Source of the DNA: Rickettsiales bacterium
Lineage (GTDB): Bacteria > Pseudomonadota > Alphaproteobacteria > Rs-D84
Assembly (NCBI GenBank): GCA_031266915.1
Contig: JAISAB010000015.1
Location: forward strand, 1 to 36,421
Direction of reading: 5' to 3'
DNA: 36,421 bases
Shown here in pieces: positions 31,721 through 36,421 of this stretch. A program made the translations under genes and the position numbers. The notes under the pieces were generated by a model. It ran no database searches. It worked only from the letters and a program-made list of their open reading frames with translations, and was not told the DNA's origin. Numbering within the stretch: the first letter of the stretch is position 1; each line of letters starts with the position of its first letter.

Positions 31721-32608
31721 TTATTCCCACTGGACGGCGCCGCCGACGGTGGCGAAATTGACGCGGTCCGTGCAGGCGGCCGCGCATGATGTCAGGCAAT
31801 TATCTGCGCTGGAATGGCCAGTATAATTATAACCCAGCACCCATGAAGACCATTTTCCGGTTACGAATGTTTCAGGCTCGGTGTCCGGGTCTTTGGAAAA
31901 TCGGCACCAGCAGAAAAGGCCGCCGTCGCATTCGGCCTCGCCCGAAGGCGCAGTGTTTGTCTGCCGACACGCCCATGTCAGCGCCCGGATGCCATAGTCG
32001 TTCGGTCTTGCCTTGTGTTCGACTTTGCCGTCAATGACCGTGTTTCCGCTTTTCGTGCCGTCCCAGGCTATATAACCGCCACTTGAAACATAATAACATG
32101 CGGCGCCCGCATTGCATAAATTCTTGTTCTCAGTCGCGCACAGCACCCGCGGCAGACAGCTTGCCGCGTCCGACGCGCCGGAATTTACCGTGACGAATTC
32201 CGCCCCGACCGTGTCGCAGGATATTTTTGTCTCCGTTCCCGCCGGACAGTAATAGTTCAGAGAACATATCGCGCATGCGCCGCCGCTTTTGTATCCGCCA
32301 GGTCCCAGGCAGTTATGAAACGCCGCGATTGCGCCAGGAACAGCGCTGGTCGCAACGATTCGTTGTTCTGATACCGTCGTGCCATAATTTGTCGCCACGG
32401 AATAGGGCGACACTTCGTTCAGTTCGTCTATGGCGCGCATCAGATATGAATTGCTGGCTGGTCCCGTGCCGTCCGCCGGGATGGAAACGCCTGTGATACT
32501 CAGAATCGATTCGCGAATATAATTCGCCGTGGCGATGTCCGCCGACGCGGGACAGGGCGACAATAAAAAAAAGACCGTTGAAATTTTAAAGAATGCGCGT
32601 CCTGACAA
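31721..32608 (-). CDS. Secreted Cys-rich protein with shared C-terminal CWCR domain; TTG start
   Basis: TTG at 32608, preceded by AAGGGGGT, gives a signal peptide ending near CPASA (about residue 23). A Cys-rich centre with CAICSLNYYCPAGT resembles ephrin-receptor-like Cys repeats. The C-terminal 80 residues have CWCRF, a W-x8-like stretch (KWSSWVLG) and SADNCLTSCAAAC. That domain (C[WY]CR, Trp, then C-x3-CA-x2-C[AT]) is shared with the products at 34928 and 35779. It stands behind an attenuator-like leader. Surface exposure is inferred; no enzyme motif is visible. Confidence 0.8.
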   Translation of the reverse strand: MSGRAFFKISTVFFLLSPCPASADIATANYIRESILSITGVSIPADGTGPASNSYLMRAIDELNEVSPYSVATNYGTTVSEQRIVATSAVPGAIAAFHNCLGPGGYKSGGACAICSLNYYCPAGTETKISCDTVGAEFVTVNSGASDAASCLPRVLCATENKNLCNAGAACYYVSSGGYIAWDGTKSGNTVIDGKVEHKARPNDYGIRALTWACRQTNTAPSGEAECDGGLFCWCRFSKDPDTEPETFVTGKWSSWVLGYNYTGHSSADNCLTSCAAACTDRVNFATVGGAVQWE

Positions 32609-32807
32609 TCCGACCCCCTTTGAGATTTGAAGAAACCACCTGCTAGGAGGTGGTCGGGAGTTTGTCAGTTATGTGCTAACTTCGCTGTCTTTGGCCGGGG
32701 CCTGTTATATAACAGCGACATCCCGACCTAATGTATGGCCGGGCATTATTAGTAGTGGCGCACATGGGTGACAAAACCCGTTACACGCTAACAAATGTCT
32801 ATAGACG
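32609..32807 (-). promoter_or_regulatory. Structured leader RNA with attenuator architecture (copy b)
   Basis: P1 is CCCGGCC (32743-32737) with GGTCGGG (32727-32721). The 3' arm GGTCGGGA (32728-32721) can instead pair perfectly with TCCCGACC (32659-32652). The final ACC of that segment starts the terminator stem ACCACC/GGTGGT. Between them lies TCGCTGT..ACAGCGA, a further hairpin. GTTATATAACAGGCCCCGGC resembles GTTATAAAACAGTCTCGGC of copy c. Confidence 0.7.
32629..32654 (-). terminator. Terminator of leader copy b
   Basis: ACCACC (32654-32649 region), loop TCCTAGCA-like, GGTGGT and TTTCTTC; the T-tract is interrupted, so moderate strength. Confidence 0.65.
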
Positions 32808-34569: not shown

Positions 34570-34672
34570 ACATTCCTCTCACCGCGATGGCGGGGGTGGC
34601 GAGTCTTGAAGTTTGTGTTTCAAAAGCTACATTCCTGTCAGTTGAACTAATTTTTCTACTAAAAAAATCGCC

Positions 34673-34701
34673 TTGCAAAAGACGCGTTGATTGGATATAA
34701 T
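34673..34701 (+). promoter_or_regulatory. Promoter of leader copy a
   Basis: TTGCAA (34673-34678), 17 bp, TATAAT (34696-34701). Confidence 0.8.
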
Positions 34702-34927
34702 TTTCTTGTCGCAGGGTGTTCCTGCGACGGAGTGTAGTAACTCCCTTATACTTGGCGTTGCGGATGCGTTCGCAATGATAAAAAGAACTCCTGACTTTAG
34801 GTCAGGAGGGCATGCGAATATATTGAATAAGCGGCACAATTCCAAGTAGTTGTTACTAACCTCCTGACCACCACATTAGTCGGTGGTTTTTCATTTGCTG
34901 AAAAGCTGAAAAATGGAGGTCTGTAAA
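34702..34927 (+). promoter_or_regulatory. Structured leader RNA with attenuator architecture (copy a)
   Basis: Hairpins GTCGCAGG-GTGTT-CCTGCGAC (34708-34728) and GGAG..CTCC come first. P1 is CTCCTGAC-TTTAG-GTCAGGAG (34788-34808). GGTCAGGAGG (34800-34809) is perfectly complementary to CCTCCTGACC (34861-34870), whose last ACC begins the terminator stem ACCACC/GGTGGT (34868-34888) with T5. GGAGGT (34915-34920) lies after the terminator. Termination would therefore prevent expression of the secreted gene at 34928. Confidence 0.75.
34868..34893 (+). terminator. Terminator of leader copy a
   Basis: ACCACC, loop ACATTAGTC, GGTGGT and TTTT, upstream of the coding start. Confidence 0.8.
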
Positions 34928-35467
34928 ATGAAAAAATCAACTATAGTCTTAGCCTTATTTGTCTGGGCGTTCGCGGTCCAAGGCGCTTTTGCTGATGTTG
35001 ATGGCGAGGATGATAGAGGATACTATAAAATTTCCGGTTTCAACGATACGGAACCGGAAACCGATTATGACAACGGCATATATACGACTTATAATACCGG
35101 GGCACAGTACTTGTCCTCTAATACATATAAAGGTCAGACAAATAGTTTTAATAATTATGTCGTTTATTCTGATTTAAATAGCTATCTTATGCAAAGCGTA
35201 TGCGCTTCTTCAGGCCCCACTAGTACCAATACGAGCTGTAGTATTACTACTAATAAGTCAAGTAGTATTCTCGGTAGTAACGAAATGCATTGCTGGTGCC
35301 GTTTGAAGAAAGAAAATGGTTATTTAGCCTATGACGGTTGGGTTTTCAGCGGCTCGTTCACCCCAGCCAGCTATTGCGCGCGGTCCTGCGCGGGCCATTG
35401 TGCGCTTAACGCCAACAGCGAAAATTCCGCCTTACGGTCGAAATTGCTCGCACCGTTTGAGCAATGA
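34928..35467 (+). CDS. Secreted mosaic paralogue A with CWCR domain
   Basis: ATG at 34928 is seven bases from GGAGGT; the ATG at 34913 overlaps that site. Signal peptide MKKSTIVLALFVWAFAVQGAFA. The middle (about 24-110) is Asn/Thr/Tyr/Ser-rich and AT-rich at DNA level. The C-terminal domain has CWCRLKK, WVFSGSFTPAS and C-x3-CA-x2-CA. Both the signal peptide and the SGSFTPAS block are nearly identical to paralogue B at 35779-36366, but the middles hardly align. Likely a surface-exposed protein under diversifying change; function unknown. Confidence 0.85.
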   Translation: MKKSTIVLALFVWAFAVQGAFADVDGEDDRGYYKISGFNDTEPETDYDNGIYTTYNTGAQYLSSNTYKGQTNSFNNYVVYSDLNSYLMQSVCASSGPTSTNTSCSITTNKSSSILGSNEMHCWCRLKKENGYLAYDGWVFSGSFTPASYCARSCAGHCALNANSENSALRSKLLAPFEQ

Positions 35468-35559
35468 TGCCTGTCCGCATGGGTGGTGTGCCGTGGTTGC
35501 TCGCAATGATGCGGGTGGGTAGTCCGCTCCTCTTGTTTCACACTTGTTCCATACACCTG

Positions 35560-35660
35560 GCACTGGCCCCTCTTGTTAAAGAGGGGAGAATTTTCCGGCA
35601 ACTTGTTGCCAATGAAAATTCGGGGAGATTACCCGGGATACTGGGTATTGGGCGTTGAAT
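35560..35660. repeat. Palindromic repeats between convergent paralogues
   Basis: CCCCTCT-TGTTAA-AGAGGGG, then GAATTTTC..GAAAATTC around GGCAAC-TT-GTTGCC. The 35468-35778 gap also has CAATGC-GAA-GCATTG at about 35709. No gene or clear T-tract terminator seen. Confidence 0.6.
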
Positions 35661-35778
35661 CCCAGCTTTGTCACGCCTAGCGCAGGCAGGAATAGGGCCT
35701 GCTAACCGCAATGCGAAGCATTGCCATAGTTTATATTATTAGTTCGCTTCGCTCACGATTTATAGACCCACTCCGGCA

Positions 35779-36366
35779 TCAGGACCCAAACGCCGCCAGC
35801 AACGCATCCCGGAAGGCGGAATCGCTGTAGTAGTATGGGGAAGTGTCGTAGGCGCTGACCGCGCAATCGCGCGCGCAGTTCCGTGCGCAATCGCTGGCTG
35901 GGGTGAACGAGCCGCTGAAAACCCAACGGGCAAGACCTACATTACCATCTTTTTTTCTCAAGCGGCAATAGCAATGATTTTCGTTATTAGCAAGGGTATT
36001 ATTTCTATTAACCCTTCCAATATTATCATCAGTACTTATCGTAGTATAAGTGCTTGAAACTGAAGCGCACACACCTTGAAGATAATATTCACGCAATACA
36101 TCAGGAACAGCACAAGTATAAGAATCAACGTCATTATGTTTATAGCCGTCATAATAATTACCAACAGTTTGGTACCATGGAGAACCACTTTTATCTATTT
36201 CTTCAATTGTAAATATACCTACTTCATAGTCATCGACACTTATATTACAGTAGGTATCGGTATATTCATAGCGTCCATTATTATCCATATAAGCGGCCGC
36301 GTCAAAAGCGCCCTGGAACACGAACGCACAGACAAGCAATGCTAAGACTATAGTTGATTTTTTCAT
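35779..36366 (-). CDS. Secreted mosaic paralogue B with CYCR domain
   Basis: Signal peptide MKKSTIVLALLVCAFVFQGAF, nearly the same as paralogue A. A Tyr/Asp/Asn-rich, AT-rich middle with a few Cys follows (about 25-125). The end has CYCRLRKKDG, WVFSGSFTPAS and CARNCARDCA, then a Tyr-rich tail and DALLAAFGS. It faces paralogue A tail to tail. GGAGGT precedes the ATG, and the upstream bases match leader copy a up to the window end, so expression is probably attenuated the same way. Confidence 0.85.
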   Translation of the reverse strand: MKKSTIVLALLVCAFVFQGAFDAAAYMDNNGRYEYTDTYCNISVDDYEVGIFTIEEIDKSGSPWYQTVGNYYDGYKHNDVDSYTCAVPDVLREYYLQGVCASVSSTYTTISTDDNIGRVNRNNTLANNENHCYCRLRKKDGNVGLARWVFSGSFTPASDCARNCARDCAVSAYDTSPYYYSDSAFRDALLAAFGS

Positions 36367-36421
36367 TAAAGACCTCCATTTTTCAGCTTTTCAGCAAATG
36401 AAAAACCACCGACTAATGTGG
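36367..36421 (-). promoter_or_regulatory. Leader copy d, cut by the window end
   Basis: On the minus strand CCACATTAGTCGGTGGTTTTTC is the terminator half of copy a, followed by the same TTTGCTGAAAAGCTG segment and GGAGGT. The P1 part lies outside the window. Confidence 0.7.

Follow-up and report, generated by a model that had tools for sequence, protein, structure and literature searches.

Probable trans targets of a DGR among dispersed secreted-protein genes of a small alphaproteobacterial genome, and a switch-like leader RNA that precedes them

A facing gene pair and its family

The window analysed here is an entire contig of 36,421 nucleotides (C23 of genome G000, an assembly of 1.09 Mb in 26 contigs that is 95% complete). 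Near its end lie two ORFs that face each other, as the first-pass annotation of this DNA had described: gene 1 (34928..35467, plus strand), encoding a secreted protein of 179 aa, and gene 2 (35779..36366, minus strand), encoding one of 195 aa. Judging by their sequence and family matches, both are probably remote targets of a diversity-generating retroelement (DGR). The contig end (36421) falls within the leader of gene 2, of which only the 3’ part is present (36367..36421, minus strand; leader-model match L221 3085-3136), so that the full extent of the inverted identity between the two genes is not visible.

In a head-to-head alignment of the pair, leader and signal peptide are identical at 39/39 and then 53/60 positions, and identity falls to 23-39/60, with indels, in the middle. 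Over gene 1, the GC content drops from about 0.52 to 0.44-0.45. The near-identical 5’ ends and the strongly diverged, AT-rich middles that had been noted earlier are therefore both present. The WVFSGSFTPAS region, which had been taken for a second constant end, is indeed near-identical in the pair (35/36 positions of the roughly 35-nt shared stretch GTTGGGTTTTCAGCGGCTCG, beginning GTTGGGTTTTCAGC), but it is alike in the window pair only: this segment is the start of the variable repeat (VR), the element in which the family varies most.

A search with the protein of gene 1 found 23 matching loci in the same genome, the strongest 11 of them at E<=1.8e-29, which excludes a chance resemblance of the pair. 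These comprise 13 close members, about eight more distant ones and one odd C-terminal match. Eleven of the close members, the window pair among them, are full-length and intact; the two defective ones are split by a frameshift (C2:4897-5432) or truncated by the start of contig C6. Wherever the assembly includes the DNA upstream of a full-length copy, that copy has a leader, ribosome-binding site, start and signal peptide of its own, and contigs C14, C19, C23 and C6 start or end within family copies. The odd match (C14:51321-51452) consists of the family C-terminus only, reading GWVFNNSNSTAANCANNCANNCANNANNNSDFRSALLAAF, with asparagine codons exactly at the positions that vary among the paralogues.

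The picture of a repeated, variable, secreted family with strongly conserved 5’ ends thus held, and neither a want of further cassettes nor purifying selection over the full length was found. The signal peptide has a pN/pS of 0.31, compared with 0.81 for the middle and 0.75 for the VR, so that rapid evolution of the middle proceeds with no template.

Two further sets of sequences touch on this family. In the window, the gene at 31721..32608 (minus strand) encodes a secreted protein with a related C-terminus (CWCR...SSWV...CLTSCAAAC) and is a possible distant relative of the target domain. Elsewhere in the genome, a second, more distant paralogue set has VR-like C-termini (CVR.G..SCSRAALFAAP; C1:143925, C15:24650, C12:34929, C9:5983, C10:39887, C1:77065, C13:19112 and C1:38886). 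We sought a template repeat (TR) for this set in the genome and found none; a template in the relative G022, NCANCVQNGTNNSCARSAVLALP, resembles it.

A DGR and its dispersed variable repeats

The odd C-terminal match lies beside a reverse transcriptase (RT) gene. A profile search identified a DGR-clade RT of 337 aa (PF00078; C14:49820-50830, minus strand), and a 99-aa accessory ORF (C14:50827-51126), conserved at 72 of the 83 RT loci examined, separates it from the TR (C14:51321-51452), which lies about 0.5 kb from the RT and carries AAC or AAT at the variable codons. In PDB the best match to the RT profile was 8ub7 (9e-63), an entry labelled 'Reverse transcriptase' that we take to be the BPP-1 DGR enzyme; the next was a group II RT (1e-28). 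The protein also carries the motif IGNLCSQ, presumably a mark of DGR RTs as a general rule. Pfam and NCBIfam searches with the target and accessory proteins returned nothing meaningful. In the cis target (C14:47952), 16/29 TR adenines and 0/92 other bases are changed (P=2e-12). A DGR-clade RT, a nearby TR, an adenine-only cis VR and an accessory gene thus occur together, as in a DGR. The same genome has a second DGR with a different template (L059, L301; TR C25:30677-30808, RT C25:31067-31876), and relative to that template its target VR (C25:38852-38945) has changed 15/34 adenines and 1/60 other bases (P=2.5e-7).

As comparison with the C14 template shows, no fewer than 13 dispersed genes end in a VR of ~40 codons. 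Both window genes are among them (gene 1, 35336..35460, plus strand; gene 2, 35791..35928, minus strand, with an insertion relative to the TR). When all 13 VRs are pooled, 58% of the template’s adenines are changed versus 21% of other bases. For gene 1 the counts are 18/29 adenines and 17/92 other bases (P=1.7e-5), and for gene 2 they are 19/29 and 14/85 (P=1.7e-6). Each of the 12 VRs beyond the cis target shows this adenine bias (P<0.02) plus changes at other bases; outside adenines, perfect agreement with the present TR is confined to the cis target. The remote VRs moreover share states that the present TR lacks (G at position 48 in 10/12, C at position 54 in 11/12), so that their last donor was not the current TR but may have been an older or undetected one. 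A leave-one-out consensus rebuilt as such an older TR was rejected as the full source of the non-adenine changes, since it lowered them only from 240/1094 to 220/1094; drift or selection therefore contributed to them.

Within the pair, the first 36 nt of the VR agree at 35 positions and carry the same base at 8/8 TR-adenine positions (other pairs, mean 2.1, maximum 5), and agreement past these 36 bases is 48/64. A single event of duplication or gene conversion between the window genes is likely from this pattern, and its simplest reading would be that the 3’ part of the VR was re-diversified afterwards, as might be expected if the cDNA is copied from a 3’ anchor.

The same arrangement recurs among related genomes. 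We found the RT in 17/60 relatives and target homologues in 23/60, with up to 27 matches in one genome (G020). There, 17 dispersed VRs compared with one TR differ at 272/458 adenines (59%) and 80/1442 other bases (5.5%), each at P<=1.1e-5. No RT was found in G020, whose TR sits at a contig end, so that one could be located past that end; the same genome has another TR-like copy (G020:C13:158-277, L122), shortened by one CANN repeat. TR/VR pairs in G009, G021 and G022 show zero non-adenine changes (0/87, 0/92 and 0/99 among the pairs), and a pair in G001 shows 2/80. RT loci of related gut alphaproteobacteria have nearby TRs of the same kind (WVFNN.NSSA.NCANNCANNCANN). The relatives that carry names are gut alphaproteobacteria and assemblies labelled 'Rickettsiales', including rumen and horse-gut assemblies and 'Candidatus Enterousia', and the isolate labels of some appear to resemble those of termite-gut bins.

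The predicted fold of the target domain differs from that usual for such proteins. The model of the window protein was good in its C-terminal half only, and the low confidence of the N-terminal half made a fold search with it uninformative; a compact homologue (L147) was therefore folded instead. In its AlphaFold model (pLDDT 86, core >90), a beta sheet precedes two helices, and the VR makes up the last strand and the first helix. The TR/VR comparison for L147 places AAY codons at residues 104, 105, 107, 116, 119, 120, 123, 124, 127 and 128, and the variable residues of the helix cluster on one of its faces with modest significance (P=0.025), which is suggestive of a helix face presenting most of the predicted variation. 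A PDB fold search with the model gave no match at E<=0.001, and no Pfam family matched the domain. A C-type lectin fold is thus not supported, and the domain is predicted to be a new, non-C-type-lectin variable scaffold. In a large DGR survey, the annotated VR regions were systematically C-type lectins; its authors state that their approach would miss remote targets and raise the possibility that VR domains of uncharacterised type represent new variants of the C-type lectin (PMC8144416).

An abundant leader RNA with alternative pairings

The leader of gene 1 follows a predicted sigma70-like promoter (TTGCAA-17-TATAAT, 34673..34701, plus strand), and similar -35/-10-like pairs precede many other leader copies. 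All elements of the leader are on the plus strand. Hairpins P1 (GTCGCAGG/CCTGCGAC) and P2 (GGAGT/ACTCC) lie at 34708..34744, both supported by covariation (two-sided changes in 4/8 and 3/5 pairs, respectively). Arm A (CTCCTGAC, 34788..34795) can pair with arm B (GGTCAGGAGG, 34800..34809), which can pair instead with arm C (CCTCCTGACC, 34860..34869); arm C in turn can pair with B or with the ribosome-binding site (GGAGG, 34915..34919). Hairpin P6 (ACAATT/AGTTGT, 34836..34853) lies between arms B and C, and a terminator-like hairpin (ACCACC/GGTGGT, 34867..34887), followed by TTTTT, keeps six of six pairs in all sequences. An antisense match to the leader model at 34643-34810 (minus strand) is weak (E=0.1) and probably due to palindromic hairpins.

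The leader is a structured RNA with 95.6% of cells paired, versus 37-59% when slid, a fold z of -6.3 and two-sided compensatory changes in 13/36 pairs. Both A:B and B:C are possible in 61/64 leaders, through many arm variants, while arm B pairs with C arms taken from other copies just 35% of the time. RNAalifold paired the ribosome-binding site with arm C in 9/9 leaders. Taken comparatively, the leader shares with riboswitches a conserved structure and a switching helix that reaches the ribosome-binding site; it matched no Rfam entry or known aptamer family and is for that reason not filed as one. It looks like a covariation-supported, switch-like bistable RNA for which Rfam has no entry.

With a model built from the leaders of 10 DGR targets, the 1.09-Mb genome gave 70 copies at E<=1e-4, or 55 under stricter filters, and 48 of 68 copies stand directly before an ORF of at least 60 aa (mirrored control, 1). 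Among the downstream ORFs scored, a simple rule assigns a signal-peptide-like start to 39/53, and many are cysteine-rich. The leader occurs in 34 of the 35 listed same-family relatives and in none of six other-family genomes of the class, on rough E-values. By coordinates compared by hand, it precedes the matched segment by a few hundred bases in 11/12 targets of G030 and in 7/9 targets of G035, a member of another genus. G020 has only two or three leaders, which makes DGR diversification and the leader separable.

Other copies have different surroundings. A weak member (model R1, E=0.004) lies at 32611..32747 (minus strand), directly before the gene at 31721-32608, and HTH regulators of XRE type follow the same leader at L243:738-965, L289:548-898 and L275:683-898. 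Copies without an ORF are sRNA-like in one group (L241 2111-2231, L247, L248, L249, L263 and L264), where a hairpin with a GGGAG loop and a GGGGGG...CCCCCC terminator lie downstream. In another group of ORF-less copies (L265, L266, L268, L273, L276, L279, L280, L285, L294 and L298), most are followed by a hairpin whose loop bears a TTTCTCTCTCC-like, anti-Shine-Dalgarno-like sequence.

Origin of the variation and relation to known systems

That the family originated through a DGR is all but certain. We consider it highly probable (about 0.87) that the window genes are remote, trans targets of a DGR, combining mutagenic homing with leader-gated translation. TR RNA would be reverse-transcribed with random bases placed at adenines, and the cDNA would replace VRs genome-wide, such that each gene displays its own C-terminal surface on a secreted protein. 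The mutated 5’ half that the pair’s VRs have in common would stem from duplication or gene conversion, the 3’ half having been re-diversified later. Translation would be gated by the shared leader: in the off state arm B would be taken up by A, so that C could cover the ribosome-binding site, and in the on state B would pair with C and free that site. The likely role would be varied contacts with host, prey, phage or neighbours.

The first-pass annotation had instead proposed antigenic variation by recombination, in which inversion or gene conversion between facing, constant-ended copies would swap cassettes. Three observations speak for such exchange: leader and signal sequences are inverted and almost identical, the pair have in common a VR 5’ half that was mutated beforehand, and several contigs break inside family copies. 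We nevertheless judge it improbable as the engine of variation, because variation at the 3’ end tracks TR adenines in a genome that has both RT and TR, and because the copies are not silent cassettes serving a single expression site, full-length ones being equipped with their own expression signals. Still further from the evidence is the view that diversifying selection acted on a cysteine-rich family that had expanded in the ordinary way, with the TR a mere gene fragment. The middles do vary without a template, at a pN/pS near 0.8; even so, we give this reading hardly any credence, since four independent TR/VR pairs show no non-adenine changes (0/92, 0/87, 0/92 and 0/99) and the TR adjoins a DGR-clade RT in an arrangement that many relatives share. 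For the family as a whole, the adenine-specific pairs refute it.

A sub-case of the DGR explanation, compatible with it, is harder to set aside: the remote VRs, including the window pair, may be DGR-derived fossils on which rewriting has ceased and whose present divergence comes from point mutation and selection. Non-adenine changes in every remote VR, shared states missing from the present TR and a pN/pS of 0.75-0.81 across VR and middle would all follow from this, yet the adenine bias of the window VRs is still strong (P ~1e-5 to 1e-6), 11 ORFs are intact, and the remote VRs of G020 differ little from their TR in sequence, so that trans action does occur in the family. We put its chances slightly below even. 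The most comprehensive statement, which we regard as evenly poised, is that reduced-genome gut alphaproteobacteria possess a one-template, trans-DGR repertoire of secreted proteins on a non-C-type-lectin helix-face scaffold, its expression gated by an undescribed bistable leader common to dozens of secreted-protein genes. Such a family would offer many remote targets of one TR together with a predicted new variable scaffold, in a genome compact enough for its protein repertoire and regulation to be studied side by side, and the leader would represent a new and unusually abundant RNA family.

In Bordetella phage BPP-1, the target Mtd has a C-type lectin fold with the VR at its 3’ end. The BPP-1 DGR (bRT, Avd, TR, Mtd) resembles the present one in its same-clade RT, the TR near the RT and an adenine-specific 3’ VR; it has one cis target, a C-type lectin, in a phage, whereas here many remote targets of a different predicted fold lie on a bacterial chromosome. 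Closer in layout is the TvpA DGR of Treponema denticola, in which one TR and RT serve several remote surface-protein targets, some extra-mutated, numbering two to seven per isolate (PMC4891356), compared with 13 close members in 1.09 Mb here and 17 tested remote VRs (27 matches) in the relative G020. Thiohalocapsa PB-PSB1 likewise combines genome-wide trans targets with coexisting degenerate loci. In its 7.95 Mb, nine DGR loci serve 15 targets, which are conflict-system proteins bearing CLec domains (PMC10907252); here the targets are small, secreted, cysteine-rich proteins that mostly rely on one TR. The leader shares with riboswitch-type and attenuator leaders in Rfam its mutually exclusive helices reaching the ribosome-binding site and its terminator-like hairpin, and differs from them in matching no Rfam entry, in its 55-70 copies in one small genome and in the ORF-less state of some of these. 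DGR action in trans on several genes is already known (PMC4891356, PMC10907252), so that trans targeting itself is not new; what sets the present system apart is the number of targets in a small genome, the predicted scaffold and the leader RNA.
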